Origin: DASVDK01 sp036381125 [NCBI: Thermodesulfobacteriota bacterium]
GTDB taxonomy: Bacteria; DASVDK01
Assembly (NCBI GenBank): GCA_036381125.1
Contig: DASVDK010000149.1
Location: forward strand, 1 to 13,900
Length of the DNA: 13,900 nt
Reading direction: 5' to 3'
The position numbers and the translations under genes were made by a program. Below, piece by piece: positions 2,639-13,543 of this stretch. The first letter of the stretch is position 1, and each line of letters starts with the position of its first letter. The notes beneath the pieces were generated by a model. The model was not told the origin of the DNA. It searched no databases and worked only from the letters and a program-made list of their open reading frames with translations.

Positions 2639-3970
2639 ATGAGAGGCGCAGTCGCCGGGCTCGCGCTCGCGACCCTCGGCGTGCTGGCGGCGGGCGGCGC
2701 CGCCGCTGCGAAGACCGTGACCGTCCCCATCACCTTCGACGGCGAGGTCCCCGTCCGCTGCGCCGTCGAGCCGCTCGGGACCTGCCACAACCGCTGGCAC
2801 CCGGACATCCCCGCGGTCGCGGAGGCCGACCCGGGCGACACCGTCGTCTTCCAGACCCGGGACGCCTTCGACAACCAGTTCAGCCGCGGATCGAGCGCCT
2901 CCGACGTCATGGCCGCCAACCTGAACCTCGTCCACCCGCTCACCGGCCCGGTCCACGTGCGGGGGGCGAGGGCCGGGGACGTCCTCGCCGTCAGGGTGGA
3001 GGACATCGCGCCCGGGCCGGACCGGTTCGGCTACACGGTGATCGTCCCGGGGTTCGGCTTCCTGCGCGACGTGTTTCCCGACCCCTTCATCGTCCGGTGG
3101 GACCTCGACCGCGGTGGGGAGGGTGGGTTCGTCGCGAGGTCGCGCGACATGCCCGGCGTGGGGATCCCCATCGGCGCCTTCGCCGGCACGATCGGCGTCG
3201 CCCTCGGTCCCTCGCAGACCGAGGCCGCCTTCCAGCGCGAGGCCGACCTCGCGGCCGCGGGCGGCTTCGTGCTCCAGCCCCAGGACGGCGGCGCCGCGTT
3301 CGACGCCGTGCCCCAGGAGGTCTGCGGCCCCGATCGCCCGGCGGCGTCACGGTGCCTCCGCACGGTCCCGCCGCGCGAGAACGGCGGGAACATGGACGTG
3401 AAGCAGATGGTGAAGGGGACGACGCTCCTCTTCCCCTGCTTCGTGGACGGCTGCCTCCTCTCGGTGGGCGACGTCCACTTCGCCCAGGGCGACGGCGAGG
3501 TGTCCGGAACGGCGATCGAGATGAACGCCGTGGTCACCGTGAAGCTGCAGATCCGCCGCGGCCAGGCCGCGCACGTCCCCAGGCCCCAGATCGAGGGGAC
3601 GCGCAAGCCGGGGATCCTCAAGCGGCTCGAGCCGGACCGGTTCCTCGCCACGACCGGCATGCCGCTCAAGCCGGCAGGGGAAGCGAACCCGCAGCTCGAC
3701 TACCTCAACTCGACCCTCGTCACCGGCCTGGCGAACCTCTCCGAGGACGTCACGGTGGCCGCGCGGGACGCGCTCCTGCACATGATCGACCTCCTCACGG
3801 GGCCGAACTCGCCGGCGCCCGTCTCGCTGTCGCGCGAGCAGGCGTACGTGCTCTCGAGCGTGGCGGTGGACCTCAGGATCAGCAACCTCGTCGACACGCC
3901 GAACTTCGTCGTCACGGCCTTCCTGCCGCTCGACGTGTTCGAGCGGACCAGACGGCGGGCGCGCGACTGA
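2639..3970 (+). CDS. Acetamidase/formamidase family protein with signal peptide
   Basis: A 443-aa hydrolase of the FmdA/AmdA acetamidase/formamidase family, which splits short amides into ammonia and carboxylate. Family blocks seen are HNRWHPDIPAVAEADPGD (50-67), LTGPVHVRGARAGDVLAV (101-118), IPIGAFAGTIGVA (176-188), ENGGNMD (247-253) and VGDVHFAQGDGEV (276-288). The ATG at 2639 has a GAGGAGGAGG ribosome binding site a few bases upstream, and the product then starts with a clean signal peptide (positive MRGA, hydrophobic core ~4-17, AAAA-K cleavage region ~24). This suggests export, whereas classical members are cytoplasmic. Six cysteines (41, 49, 229, 239, 267, 272) would allow disulfides. 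The longer frame back to 2525 adds a poor N-terminus. It is probably co-transcribed with the TAXI receptor 14 bp downstream. The substrate is unknown. Confidence 0.88.
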   Translation: MRGAVAGLALATLGVLAAGGAAAAKTVTVPITFDGEVPVRCAVEPLGTCHNRWHPDIPAVAEADPGDTVVFQTRDAFDNQFSRGSSASDVMAANLNLVHPLTGPVHVRGARAGDVLAVRVEDIAPGPDRFGYTVIVPGFGFLRDVFPDPFIVRWDLDRGGEGGFVARSRDMPGVGIPIGAFAGTIGVALGPSQTEAAFQREADLAAAGGFVLQPQDGGAAFDAVPQEVCGPDRPAASRCLRTVPPRENGGNMDVKQMVKGTTLLFPCFVDGCLLSVGDVHFAQGDGEVSGTAIEMNAVVTVKLQIRRGQAAHVPRPQIEGTRKPGILKRLEPDRFLATTGMPLKPAGEANPQLDYLNSTLVTGLANLSEDVTVAARDALLHMIDLLTGPNSPAPVSLSREQAYVLSSVAVDLRISNLVDTPNFVVTAFLPLDVFERTRRRARD

Positions 3971-3984
3971 CGGCGGCCGGGGCG

Positions 3985-4905
3985 GTGCGCTCGCTGACGC
4001 GCCGGCGCTGGCTCGCGGCAGCGGTCACGTCGGCGGCGCCGCTGCTCGCGGGGCACGCCCCCTACCGGCAGTGGCACGTCTACCGGCAGCGGCGGCTCGT
4101 CCTCGTGGTCAACGAGGCGGACGGCACCGCCGTCCGCCTCGGCGACGCGGCGGCGGCGGCGCTCGCCGCGGGCCTGCCGGAGAGCCGCGCCCTGCTCGCG
4201 ACCGCCGCGTCGGCGCGGGACCTGGTCGCCCTCCTGCGCAGCGGCCAGCTCGACATGGCCGTCCTGCCGGCCGACGAGGCGGTCGCGGCCTACACCGGGG
4301 CGCCGGACTTCGGCGGCTGGCCGGTCGCGTTGACGGCGGTCGCGCGCCTCGGGTCGGTCCGCCTGCACCTGCTCGTGCCCGGCGACCGGGCGGTCCGGCG
4401 CGCGGCAGGCCTCGGGCGCGGGCCGGTCGGCGTCGGCGTCGAGGCCTACCGGACGGCCGCCGTGACGGAGCGCGTGCTCGCGGCGAGCGGCGCGTCGGCC
4501 GCGCGGCTCGAGCCGCTGGCCGTCGGCGAGGCGGCGCACGCGCTGCGCGAGCGGCGCATCGAGGCGTTCGCCTGGCTCGACGACGTCCCGAGCGCTACCG
4601 TGCGCCGCCTGCAGGCCGAGGTCCCGGCCGGGCTGCGGCTCGTCGACCAGGGCGAGCTGCTGCCGCGGCTTGCCGAGCGGCACGGCGCCGTCTATCGCGA
4701 GGAGGTCGTCCCGGCCGGCACCTATCCCGGCGGCACGAGCGACGTGCGCGTCGCCGCCCTGCCCTACCTGCTCGTCTGCCGGCCGGTGGTGGCCGACGAG
4801 GTGGCCCACGACGTCGCGGCGGCCCTCGGCGCGCCGGCTCCCGATCCGGGTCCGCTGCCGCCCCACCCCGGCCTGGCCCACGACGCGCCCGCCGTCGGCC
4901 CCTGA
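3985..4905 (+). CDS. TAXI-family TRAP-type solute receptor (orphan)
   Basis: A 306-aa exported binding protein of the TAXI (TRAP-associated extracytoplasmic immunogenic) type. The body has the family order: an early GTAVRLGDA segment, the LLRSGQLDMAVLPADEAVAAYTG block typical of the first lobe (compare LxxGxxDxxxxQxDxxxxAYxG), a hinge with VGVGVEAYRTAA, and the conserved late motif PAGTYPGGTSDV around Tyr247. The N-terminus LTRRRWLAAAVTSAAPLLAGHA resembles a Tat-like signal peptide. The start is taken as GTG at 3985, 14 nt after the acetamidase stop, because it gives a complete signal peptide; no strong Shine-Dalgarno box is visible. TAXI proteins normally feed a DctQM-type membrane fusion protein, and none is adjacent. 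A much longer open frame in the same phase extends upstream but is an artefact of high GC. Confidence 0.8.
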   Translation: MRSLTRRRWLAAAVTSAAPLLAGHAPYRQWHVYRQRRLVLVVNEADGTAVRLGDAAAAALAAGLPESRALLATAASARDLVALLRSGQLDMAVLPADEAVAAYTGAPDFGGWPVALTAVARLGSVRLHLLVPGDRAVRRAAGLGRGPVGVGVEAYRTAAVTERVLAASGASAARLEPLAVGEAAHALRERRIEAFAWLDDVPSATVRRLQAEVPAGLRLVDQGELLPRLAERHGAVYREEVVPAGTYPGGTSDVRVAALPYLLVCRPVVADEVAHDVAAALGAPAPDPGPLPPHPGLAHDAPAVGP

Positions 4906-4958
4906 GCCGCCCGGCCGCGGCAGCGCGACGCGCCGGGCGTGGAGCCCGACCGCTGCGG

Positions 4959-5516
4959 TCAGGCGAGCGTGGTCCTGAGCGCCCACGGGCTCTCGGGGTA
5001 GCGGGCCACGACCTCGCGCCAGGCCGGCCAGAGGTCGTCCTTGTTCCCGCTCGCGCGGTACGCCGCGACCCCTTCCCAGAAGAGCGCCTCGGCCGCCACG
5101 TGGCGCCCGTTCCCACGCTCGCGCATGGCGCGCAGGCGATCGCGCGCCGCCGCGGCGCGTGCCGAGCGCAGCTCCACGAGCGCCTCCGCCAACTCGAGCT
5201 CCGCCAGCAGCTCCGGCGGCGGCAGAAAGCCGATCCACTCCCGGGTCACGATGCCGGCCGGGTGGACGACCACGAGCGTCGGCGTCCAGAGCACCCGGAA
5301 CTGCCGGGCCAGGTCCTTCTGCACCGTCACGTCGAGCTTCACCGGGACGAACCGCTCCGCGAGCGTCCGCGCGACCTCGCCGTCCGGGTAGGTCGCGGCC
5401 TCCAGCCGCGCGCAGCCGACTCAGCCCGGCGCCTTGAAGTCGACGAAGAGCGGCCGCCCCGCCTCGCGAGCCTCGGCCGCCGCGGCCTCGAAGTCCTCCC
5501 GCCACGAAATCGCCAT
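4959..5516 (-). CDS. Thioredoxin-fold selenoprotein (UxxC) with C-terminal helical/TPR-like domain
   Basis: A predicted 185-aa selenoprotein. From the ATG at 5516 (GGAGG box ~7 nt upstream) the product reads MAISWREDF... then FVDFKAPG, an in-frame TGA (5423-5421, codon 32), then VGC. This is where thioredoxins have WCxxC, so U32-V-G-C35 replaces the CxxC. The same frame continues without break through ARLEAATYPDGEVA, the FVPVKLDVT strand and the cis-proline motif WTPTLVVV (Pro79), so the fold is intact on both sides of the TGA. Residues ~100-185 are helical and TPR-like, ending DLWPAWREVVARYPESPWA. A hairpin at SECIS distance follows the TGA. The role is probably thiol/selenol redox chemistry in the cytoplasm, as no signal peptide is seen. 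The substrate is unknown. Alternative: a pseudogene with a nonsense mutation, which the intact frame and hairpin make less likely. The terminal stop is also TGA (4959-4961). Confidence 0.82.
5394..5423 (-). promoter_or_regulatory. Predicted bacterial SECIS element with UGA(Sec) codon
   Basis: After the TGA (5423-5421) and 10 nt of spacer, the minus strand has a perfect 6-bp stem CGCGGC (5410-5405) / GCCGCG (5399-5394) closing the loop UGGAG (5404-5400). A U-G pair could extend the stem to 7 bp with a GGA loop. Known bacterial SECIS elements place a small apical loop with G near its start about 16-37 nt after the UGA; here the loop starts 16 nt after the UGA codon. SelB would bind this hairpin to insert selenocysteine. 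High GC makes chance hairpins common, so the support is the combination of position and the UxxC context. Confidence 0.65.
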
Positions 5517-5546
5517 GCGCCGCCTCCTTCCGACGGGGCCCACCCT

Positions 5547-5765
5547 ACGGCCGCGGAGGGCCTCGGGCTCGCCCTCGTCCCCACCGTCGTGGCCGCCCCG
5601 CCGCCGCGCGGCACCCGGGCGCGAGCCCTCTCCGGCGACGACCTCGGGCTGCCGATCGGCCTCGTCCGCCGGCGCGACGCCGGCCGGCCGGGCCCCGCGC
5701 TCGCGGCCGTGCTCGACGCGCTGCGTCAGGGGCTCCGCACAAGAACCCCTTCGGGCCGCTCCTGA
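5547..5765 (+). pseudogene. Remnant: C-terminal end of a LysR-type transcriptional regulator
   Basis: An open stretch of about 72 codons ending in TGA at 5763-5765. It reads AAEGLGLALVPTVVAA, then ALSGDDLGLPIGLVRRRD, then ALAAVLDALRQGL. This matches the end of the LysR substrate-binding domain: the G-L-G-[IV]-A-L-[LV]-P helix, a following strand with xLVRRR, and a terminal helix. No start codon, helix-turn-helix or earlier effector-domain sequence precedes it. Just upstream lies the opposite-strand selenoprotein start (5516), so at most this tail survives. The call rests on a short match and is moderate; a coincidental frame is possible. Confidence 0.45.
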
Positions 5766-5835
5766 GAGCGGCTGCTTGCTATGCTGTCGAGCGTTGGCCA
5801 GGGCTCCAGAGGCCGTCCTCCGGAGGGCACCGTCG

Positions 5836-6097
5836 ATGGCAGATGCCTGGGGGCGCCGGCGGCTCGCCGGCACGATCGCCATGCGGGCTCCCGAGGCTGG
5901 TCGCGGGGTGCGGCGGCGACGGCGGCAGCGCCGTGTCCCCGCCCACCGCGCCGAACGGTCGGTTCCTCTACGTGGCCAACCGCGCCTCCAACGACATCCC
6001 GGCGTTCGCCATCGATCCGGCGAGCGGGGCGCTCGGGGCCGCGGGCGCCCCGGTCCCCACGGGCCTCGACCCACGGGCGATCGCCATCGCGTGGTGA
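5836..6097 (+). pseudogene. Remnant of a lactonase/YVTN-type beta-propeller lipoprotein
   Basis: The frame ending in TGA at 6095-6097 contains a lipobox-like LVAGC followed by a Gly/Asp-rich linker and one propeller blade, GRFLYVANRASNDIPAFAIDPASG ending GLDPRAIAIA. This is the typical first blade of the 6-phosphogluconolactonase-like (lactonase, Pfam PF10282) or YVTN repeat proteins. Full-length members have about seven blades and over 300 residues, so all but the first are missing. The signal peptide is also broken: a plausible start, MADAWGRRRLAGTIAM (ATG 5836), is in a different frame from the lipobox, suggesting a frameshift between about 5880 and 5905. The open frame from the ATG at 5843 (84 aa) lacks a hydrophobic leader. 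The exact pseudogene limits are uncertain. Confidence 0.55.
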
Positions 6098-7150: not shown

Positions 7151-8368
7151 TTACCTCGCCGGCGCCACGCGCTGCACGGCCGCGCGCAGCCGCCGCAGCC
7201 CCTCGTCGATCCGCTCGGGTGTCGAGTTCGAGAAGTTGAGCCGGAGCGTCCGCGCCGCCTCCGGGCGCGACTGGTCGATGTAGAAGGGGGCTCCCGGCAC
7301 GAACGCCACGTCCGCCGCCACGGCCGCGTGGAAGAGCGCCATGGCGTCCCACCCGGGCGGCAGGGTCACCCAGACGAACATGCCGCCGTCGGGACGCGTC
7401 CAGGTCGAGCCGACCGGCAGGGCGTCGGGCAGGGCGGCGAGGAGCGCGTCGCGTCGCCTCGCGTACTCCCGGCGCAGGCGGCCGAGGTGCGCGTCGAGGT
7501 CCTCGCTCGCCAGGAAGTCGGCGGCGAGCCGCTGGCCGAGCGACGTCGTGTGGAGGTCGGCCGCCTGCTTGACGAAGACGAGCCGCTCGAGGATCGGCCC
7601 GGCGGCCATGACGTAGCCGAGCCGGAGCCCGGGGGCGAGCACCTTCGAGAAGGAGCCGAGGGAGACCACGCGGCCGGGGCCCTCGAGCGCGGTCTGCCCG
7701 GCCGTGCGGCCCGCCGCGACCGCGGGCGGGAAGGCGCCCTCGTAGCGGAGGGCGCCGTAGGGGTTGTCGTCGACCACCACGAAGCCGTGCCGGTCGGCCA
7801 GCTCGACGAGGCGCGCCCGCCGCTCGGCGGCCAGCGTGACGCCGGTCGGGTTCTGGAACTCGCTCACGGTGTAGACGAGCCGGACGCGACGTCGGCGACA
7901 GAGCGCGTCGAGGGCGTCGAGATCGATGCCTCCCGCGTCGACCGGCACGCCGGCGAGGTCGGCGCCGGCGAGGCGGAAGGCCTGGATGGCGGCCAGGTAG
8001 CCCGGCTCCTCGACCGCCGCCAGGGCGCCCGGCTCGAGGAAGAGCCGCGCCGCGAGGTCGAGCCCCTGCTGCGAGCCGGCCGTCACCACCACCTCGTCGG
8101 CCCGCGCGGGCGCGCCCCGCCGCGCGAACTGGGCGGCGATCCACTCGCGCAGCGCCGGGTGCCCCTCCGTCGTCGAGTACTGGAGCGCCGGCGCGCCGTC
8201 GCGCTCGAAGACGCGCGCCGCGGCGCGCGCGAGGGCGTCGGTGGGGAAGAGCTCGGGCGCCGGCAACCCGCCGGCGAGGGAGATCACCTCGGGCCGCGCG
8301 GTCACCTTGAGGATCTCGCGGACGACCGACCCTTCCGCCTGCCGCGCCCCCTTCGCGAACTCCACCAT
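7151..8368 (-). CDS. PLP-dependent aminotransferase, class I/II (LysN/2-aminoadipate aminotransferase-like)
   Basis: A 405-aa fold-type I aminotransferase using pyridoxal phosphate to move amino groups between amino and keto acids in the cytoplasm. Seen in order: VISLAGGLPAPELFP (28-42), the QYSTTEGHPALRE substrate/PLP loop (63-75), EPGY (121-124), QNPTG (172-176), the VVDDNPYG block with the PLP-ring Asp and Tyr204, and SFSKVLAPGLRLGY with the Schiff-base Lys242. LRLNFS near the end holds the carboxylate-binding Arg. The SLAGGLPAPELFP opening is typical of the LysN/aromatic aminotransferase group; the substrate cannot be decided. The ATG at 8368 (MVEFAKGARQAEGSVV) is preferred, with GGAGG 10 nt upstream; a GTG at 8413 would add 15 residues. 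It lies 162 bp downstream of the same-strand TrmB-family regulator, its probable controller. Confidence 0.93.
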   Translation of the reverse strand: MVEFAKGARQAEGSVVREILKVTARPEVISLAGGLPAPELFPTDALARAAARVFERDGAPALQYSTTEGHPALREWIAAQFARRGAPARADEVVVTAGSQQGLDLAARLFLEPGALAAVEEPGYLAAIQAFRLAGADLAGVPVDAGGIDLDALDALCRRRRVRLVYTVSEFQNPTGVTLAAERRARLVELADRHGFVVVDDNPYGALRYEGAFPPAVAAGRTAGQTALEGPGRVVSLGSFSKVLAPGLRLGYVMAAGPILERLVFVKQAADLHTTSLGQRLAADFLASEDLDAHLGRLRREYARRRDALLAALPDALPVGSTWTRPDGGMFVWVTLPPGWDAMALFHAAVAADVAFVPGAPFYIDQSRPEAARTLRLNFSNSTPERIDEGLRRLRAAVQRVAPAR

Positions 8369-8398
8369 CCCTGCGGTCCCTCCATGCCCGGACGCCCC

Positions 8399-8418
8399 AG
8401 GCTGTGCCTGCACAGCCT
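8399..8418. promoter_or_regulatory. Inverted repeat upstream of aminotransferase gene (possible operator)
   Basis: Perfect 9-bp arms AGGCTGTGC (8399-8407) and GCACAGCCT (8410-8418) around a 2-bp centre, located 31-50 bp upstream of the aminotransferase ATG. The very short centre suits a dimeric DNA-binding protein better than an RNA hairpin. Which regulator binds is unknown; the adjacent TrmB-family protein is a candidate, but its own palindrome has a different sequence. Confidence 0.45.
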
Positions 8419-9631: not shown

Positions 9632-12553
<2,922 letters not shown>

Positions 12554-13417: not shown

Positions 13418-13543
13418 GGGGTCAGGTCTTTCCATTTTCCATGGGGTCAGGCCTTTCCATTTTCCAGGGGGTCTGACCCCACTCGTTTTCCAGGGGGTCA
13501 GGTCTTTCCATTTTCCGTGGGGTCAGGTCTTTCCGTTTTCCAC
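13418..13543. repeat. Five tandem copies of a ~25-bp repeat (REP-like core)
   Basis: Units at 13418-13442, 13443-13467, 13468-13493, 13494-13518 and 13519-13543. Each begins GGGGTCAGG(T/C)C and then continues TTTCC(A/G)TTTTCC, with one to three differing bases. The third unit differs: it reads GGGGTCTGACCCC, a perfect inverted repeat with 6-bp arms, followed by ACTCGTTTTCCAG. GGGGTCAGG-type repeats are common in intergenic DNA of high-GC proteobacteria-like genomes, often near REP-associated transposases, though none is visible here. Confidence 0.85.

Follow-up and report, generated by a model that had tools for sequence, protein, structure and literature searches.

The question raised by this locus is whether a TGA codon that interrupts an otherwise open reading frame is read as selenocysteine (Sec) or ends translation. 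The window, that is, the whole stretch of DNA analysed here, is 13,900 nt long, and the frame in question, for which we coin the name trxU, occupies 4959..5516 on the (-) strand, as delineated by translation, Pfam matches and G+C content by codon position. It begins with an ATG at 5516 that is preceded, at a distance of 6 nt, by the Shine-Dalgarno (SD) box AAGGAGG (5523..5529, (-) strand), and it comprises 185 codons including one in-frame TGA, followed by a terminal TGA. When TGA is translated as U, the N-terminus reads MAISWREDFEAAAAEAREAGRPLFVDFKAPG-U-VGCARL.... The in-frame TGA is codon 32 (5421..5423, (-) strand), which coincides with a column of alignments A1 and A2 in which Cys is invariant, and would be read as Sec in the first position of a CxxC motif; the TGC at codon 35 (5412..5414, (-) strand) supplies the second Cys of UxxC, the presumed resolving Cys. 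These two TGA codons are the only stops in the frame and are separated by 153 codons. The arrangement proposed in the first-pass annotation, an ATG with an SD box at 5516 and a frame that passes a TGA and then runs uninterrupted to 4959, is indeed seen in the translation. In the region 4800-5900, no match to a sigma-70-type promoter was found.

The coding character of the frame is the same on both sides of codon 32: G+C at the three codon positions is 0.74/0.55/0.94 before the TGA and 0.77/0.52/0.97 after it. In the entire window, 48 TGA codons have at least 25 open codons before them and at least 60 after them, and five of these are accompanied by a Cys three codons away (+3 or -3), namely that of trxU and those at 9880, 11900, 10512 and 186; the latter four belong to other frames over histidine kinase and groES genes. 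Reassignment of TGA to an amino acid was considered and rejected: TGA serves as the terminator of four of the 12 window genes checked, trxU being one of them, and no internal stop occurs in the remaining 11.

The position of the TGA acquires its meaning from the domain in which it lies. Residues 2-107 (5196..5513, (-) strand) form a thioredoxin domain according to Pfam and the alignment, and residues 5-86 of it match Thioredoxin_7; the joined protein scores 54.6 bits with this model against a cut-off of 27 bits. Each flank also finds the model by itself, though below the 27-bit cut-off: the segment of 31 residues N-terminal to the TGA position aligns with profile positions 2-26 at 24.3 bits (E 3.4e-5), and the 153-residue segment C-terminal to it aligns with positions 32-83 at 15.8 bits (E 0.015). 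The two flanks match one profile in order, as a single continuous conserved domain. An alignment of 10 rows, the window protein and nine homologues, has five invariant columns, A29, C32, C35, D62 and P79, where C32 corresponds to the TGA codon. The TGA had been claimed to sit at the catalytic Cys of a thioredoxin with a Cys at +3, and the alignment bears this out. The same can be said of the cis-Pro WTPT motif, which is present and contains the invariant P79, with the cis state being presumed.

Among NCBIfam families, the thioredoxin domain comes closest to the C-terminal ends of TsoB (NF045694) and DsbD (NF001419), far below the curated whole-protein cut-offs (45.8 of 805 bits and 37.6 of 330 bits, respectively). 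A structure model predicted from the single sequence has a mean pLDDT of 59.1 and is poor in the thioredoxin part (blocks of 30-52 in residues 1-100). A Foldseek search with this model gave no match at E 0.001, the best being a Thermus thioredoxin at 1.9e-3. Read by eye, the N-terminus lacks the hydrophobic stretch typical of signal peptides, and because of this a cytoplasmic enzyme is likely.

The first-pass annotation had suggested looking for homologues with Cys or Sec aligned at position 32, and Cys was found there throughout; its refuting case, homologues without Cys or Sec there, did not arise. It occupies the TGA position in 10 of 10 thioredoxin homologues of a first alignment (an eleventh row, L012, is a chance match of 20 residues and lies outside this count) and in nine of nine homologues of a second alignment, including both full-length ones; a tenth locus fetched, L100, which is outside these nine, shows CxxC. 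Among 27 loci read further, 26 have CxxC, and the 27th (L131, in genome G747) has CxxC as well. Note that these counts overlap, several of the loci being the same places fetched twice. At E 1e-10 or better, the protein found matches in 22 of 369 sampled genomes from the class to which G095 belongs; seven of these (G742, G659, G411, G693, G614, G553 and G594) have no flagged stops and do not enter the counts of Cys.

Full-length matches in this sample come only from G740 and G541. The two proteins, L097 (G740) and L098 (G541), belong to the phylum of the betaproteobacterium L078 and are about 32% identical to the window protein in the stretch from residue 2 to 182 (E 6.7e-21 and 1.9e-20 in the comparison with the fetched loci). 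Their motifs PGCPGC and PGCSGC stand opposite PG-TGA-VGC of the window, and their tails alone match that of the window protein with E 2e-8 and 1e-7 in a single comparison. A profile built from the three full-length proteins matched 29 of the 369 genomes of the same class sample at E 1e-12, with only these two at full length. In a sample of the phylum, one of 398 genomes, again G740, matched this profile at E 1e-18, and no further full-length member was found; in the order of G740 and G541, two of five genomes have the full-length form. No selB over the curated cut-off was detected in G740 or G541, which is a tentative result since genome completeness is not given; in that search, G095 was the one genome of six to pass, and two of 14 control genomes also pass. 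The pairing of a Cys form with a TGA form is a common basis for selenoprotein prediction (PMC13188914). The Cys forms L097 and L098 together with the TGA form of the window are the Cys/Sec pair expected of a selenoprotein.

Searches for further relatives added little to this pair. No second homologue containing Sec was found among the homologues read from genome samples of the phylum of G001, all of which have Cys. There was no relative in the genome contigs scanned with the protein by exact peptide patterns, nor in the viral contigs scanned with the protein and with alignment A2. In plasmids, the window protein had five weak matches of thioredoxin type and L098 had one; phages gave no match to the window protein. 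A degenerate DNA pattern (VDF-x-A-x-G-TGA with Cys at +3) picked out four viral-contig loci, L093-L096, which were rejected: the stretches shown are alike, rich in stops and unrelated to thioredoxin. The in-frame stops flagged in some thioredoxin matches (L081 and others) were likewise set aside. They lie at position 108 of the match or later, i.e., behind the CxxC, and look like the genes' own terminators.

The remaining part of the protein, residues 108-185 (4962..5195, (-) strand), is a TPR-like tail resembling CpoB/YbgF according to sequence and structure comparison, and it is matched by the tails of L097 and L098. In the structure model, residues 101-180 are mostly helical, with pLDDT blocks of 64-88. 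The tail matches CpoB with E 0.002 in phmmer and superposes on the YbgF/CpoB TPR domain with an rmsd of 1.8 over 75 columns in Foldseek (E 0.13). VIA-align gives Z 10.6 for YbgF (rmsd 3.4, 98 aligned), a value to be read with the fact that helical repeats produce middling Z by chance. The YbgF model finds both the L097 and the L098 tail (E 1.5e-8 and 2.1e-8, respectively) with scores under its cut-off, and all matches of the window tail to Pfam TPR models are below cut-off. The TPR-like character proposed for the tail is consistent with these results, and its length, estimated earlier at about 85 residues, is corrected to 78. The product of trxU thus has a thioredoxin domain followed by a TPR-like region, which is the CnoX-type order.

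In bacteria, recoding of UGA involves a hairpin (bSECIS) just downstream, and a candidate was found at 5394..5410 on the (-) strand: CGCGGCT-GGA-GGCCGCG, with seven pairs, the loop GGA and -11.1 kcal/mol. It begins 10 nt past the TGA, with 17 nt between the TGA and the loop. PMC13188914 gives as limits a loop of 3-9 nt, a stem of 4-16 pairs, a G in the first two loop positions, a spacing of 16-37 nt and an energy of -7.5 kcal/mol or lower, and the candidate lies within all of these. When the frame was recoded synonymously 5000 times, 11% of the recodings passed the bSECIS model and 3.5% equalled the candidate; at 3238 codon positions of nine control genes, the corresponding proportions were 24% and 8.4%. 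The 51 nt around the TGA have no extra stability (z +0.92 against shuffles, 171 of 200 of which fold as well), and in a 140-nt context the candidate is outcompeted, with pair probabilities of 0.00-0.03. In a search against Rfam, no part of the window reached the gathering scores, and the surroundings of the TGA gave no match even at E up to 1. The hairpin is therefore only moderately beyond chance and lends weak support to a bSECIS element. No tRNA genes were found in the 13,900-nt window.

The genes around trxU were inspected for a possible partner. On the downstream side, trxU converges with a TAXI-type TRAP solute-binding gene ending at 4905; this gene scores 83.1 of 84.35 bits, just under the curated NCBIfam cut-off, and closely follows a formamidase-like gene on the (+) strand (2639-4905 for the two). 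Directly upstream of the start lies the remnant of a LysR-type regulator (5550-5735, (+) strand), which covers positions 146-208 of 209 of LysR_substrate at 26.9 bits against a cut-off of 28, its N-terminal part not being seen there. It is followed by the remnant of a lactonase-like beta-propeller gene (5948-6088, (+) strand) that covers 47 profile positions only. The presence of two gene remnants just upstream indicates that the neighbourhood has undergone decay or rearrangement. The groES gene is 4.5 kb from trxU, and nothing connects the two genes. Near the two full-length homologues, 10 neighbouring ORFs were scanned, four of 23 at L135 (near L097) and six of 22 at L136 (near L098). Those near L097 match the families CCG, LUD and GGDEF, those near L098 match aminopeptidase P, FAD_binding_3 (two), Metallophos and RsmI, and one of the 10 has no family match. 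When PAS-type sensor domains are left out, no neighbour family is shared between the two places, or between either of them and the scanned window genes. With no recurring neighbour, the gene context names no partner.

Several other features of the window were recorded in passing. A TtcA-like gene is among the neighbours; a scan of the genome contigs with it gave at least 80 loci at 47-52% identity, titled as Pseudomonadota. The G+C content and the genes present might suggest Rokubacteria (Methylomirabilota) as the source, which is no more than a guess. The gene at 7151-8413 on the (-) strand encodes an aminotransferase domain; in NCBIfam it comes closest to MocR-type regulators, with the match setting in only after their N-terminal part. 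At 13418-13542, five tandem copies of a 25-nt unit lie at the 5' end of a polysaccharide deacetylase gene, and the consensus of the unit is about half G+C, in contrast to 75% G+C for the window.

Three explanations that do without Sec have to be weighed against these data. One is that trxU is a young pseudogene in which the codon for the active-site Cys became TGA by a single base change. TGA is one base away from both Cys codons, all homologues read have the Cys form, the LysR and lactonase-like remnants just upstream leave room for such a reading, and in the nine control genes an equally good hairpin is found behind 7 of the 30 ordinary Cys codons. However, a random nonsense mutation had been argued to hit an active-site codon only rarely, and counting agrees: codon 32 is the target of one of the 49 single-base nonsense paths in trxU, or of one of nine if only paths to TGA are considered. 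In addition, the rest of the frame is intact, the SD box is strong and the composition by codon position is unchanged past the TGA. We consider the pseudogene unlikely. A sequencing or assembly error that put TGA in place of TGC or TGT, the gene being one for an ordinary thioredoxin-TPR protein of Cys type, would fit the fact that both full-length homologues are Cys forms. Such an error, however, would have to hit the same one path in 49 and, moreover, chance on a bSECIS-like hairpin, which 11% of the recodings pass and 3.5% equal, and none of the 11 other window genes checked has an internal stop; this explanation is very improbable.

The remaining explanation takes the TGA as a true stop, so that the locus would yield a peptide of 31 residues and, separately, a protein of 127 residues starting at GTG 5342. 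The first-pass annotation had expected standard annotation to yield the latter protein, and the 127-aa ORF does exist. Its GTG, however, falls within the thioredoxin domain, in the stretch FVPVKLD, and has no well-placed SD box in the 25 nt upstream, and the ORF reaches no Pfam cut-off, whereas the joined 185-residue protein passes four. Two separate products can practically be dismissed.

Given the frame, the start signal, the domain, the TGA on an invariant Cys column, the tail homology and the full-length Cys homologues, we conclude that trxU is very probably a live selenoprotein gene, in which Sec is inserted at UGA codon 32 of a redox enzyme with a thioredoxin domain and a TPR-like tail. 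The selenoprotein reading is supported, short of proof. From it we infer Sec insertion, redox chemistry, a cytoplasmic location and partner binding in the following manner. Ribosomes would start at ATG 5516; SelB and Sec-tRNA would insert Sec at UGA codon 32, aided by the hairpin just downstream; and translation would proceed to 4962, giving a 185-residue protein without an evident signal peptide. The selenol of Sec32 would then attack a disulfide or an oxidised thiol of a partner, Cys35 would resolve the Se-S bond, Pro79 would shape the substrate groove, and the TPR-like tail would pick the partner or client. On this basis, the product most likely works in the cytoplasm as a selenol-based thiol:disulfide reductase, with the TPR-like tail steering it. 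More speculatively, it may be a selenocysteine chaperedoxin, i.e., a soluble cytoplasmic selenol reductase that the tail directs to chosen clients, from a family that is outside the 119-family table discussed below and whose Cys counterpart, found rarely, belongs to genomes lacking a recognisable selB; we regard this fuller picture as possible rather than probable.

If the selenoprotein reading is true, the thioredoxin-TPR architecture is added to the selenoprotein families, and trxU is a further example of a gene that loses its active site through truncation by standard callers. It would also provide a small, testable selenol enzyme with a built-in partner-binding module, and its natural Cys counterparts, L097 and L098, would allow Sec and Cys to be compared directly. 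A Methylomirabilota genome is reported to have 63 selenoproteins.

Known systems share parts of this architecture. UxxC thioredoxins are experimentally verified selenoproteins and UxxC proteins of PF13098 are confident predictions (Table 1 of PMC13188914). Like these thioredoxins and thiol:disulfide interchange selenoproteins (PF00085, PF13098), the trxU product has a thioredoxin fold, Sec first in UxxC and an in-frame UGA, but it differs in its best match, Thioredoxin_7, and in its TPR-like tail. In the 119-family table of PMC13188914, no family name joins thioredoxin to TPR; since the rows are domain ids rather than architectures, a listed family could hide a thioredoxin-TPR member. The main text of the same paper is without the words TPR, tetratricopeptide, CnoX and chaperedoxin, and that of PMC12013277 (deep-Sep) is without thioredoxin, TPR and tetratricopeptide. 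Judged by title, a literature search for a bacterial thioredoxin-tetratricopeptide selenoprotein returned nothing on bacterial selenoproteins. TsoB (NF045694) and the C-terminal domain of DsbD (NF001419) are the best NCBIfam matches, and TsoB is itself named a selenoprotein family, but the trxU product is far below their cut-offs and, at 185 residues, too short to include a membrane or rhodanese part.

In function, the CnoX/YbbN chaperedoxins offer the closest parallel. CnoX consists of an N-terminal thioredoxin domain and a C-terminal TPR domain; its Caulobacter form is active as a thioredoxin oxidoreductase, and CnoX-like proteins depend for their activity on the first Cys of CXXC (PMC6282202). 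The order of domains is that of the trxU product, but these proteins have Cys (Ser in E. coli) where Sec is predicted here. The TPR domain of CnoX type is long, with about four repeats, and the tail of trxU, which matches CpoB/YbgF, is shorter; with 78 residues after the thioredoxin domain, an assignment to CnoX was rejected. Closest in sequence is the Cys-type thioredoxin-TPR family of L097 and L098, which has the same full-length architecture, the PG(C/U)xGC motif and a similar tail, but has Cys at the TGA position and occurs in genomes where, tentatively, no selB exceeds the cut-off. UxxC thioredoxins and Cys-type thioredoxin-TPR proteins such as CnoX are thus known separately, and their combination, as predicted for trxU, is absent by name from the 119-family table.
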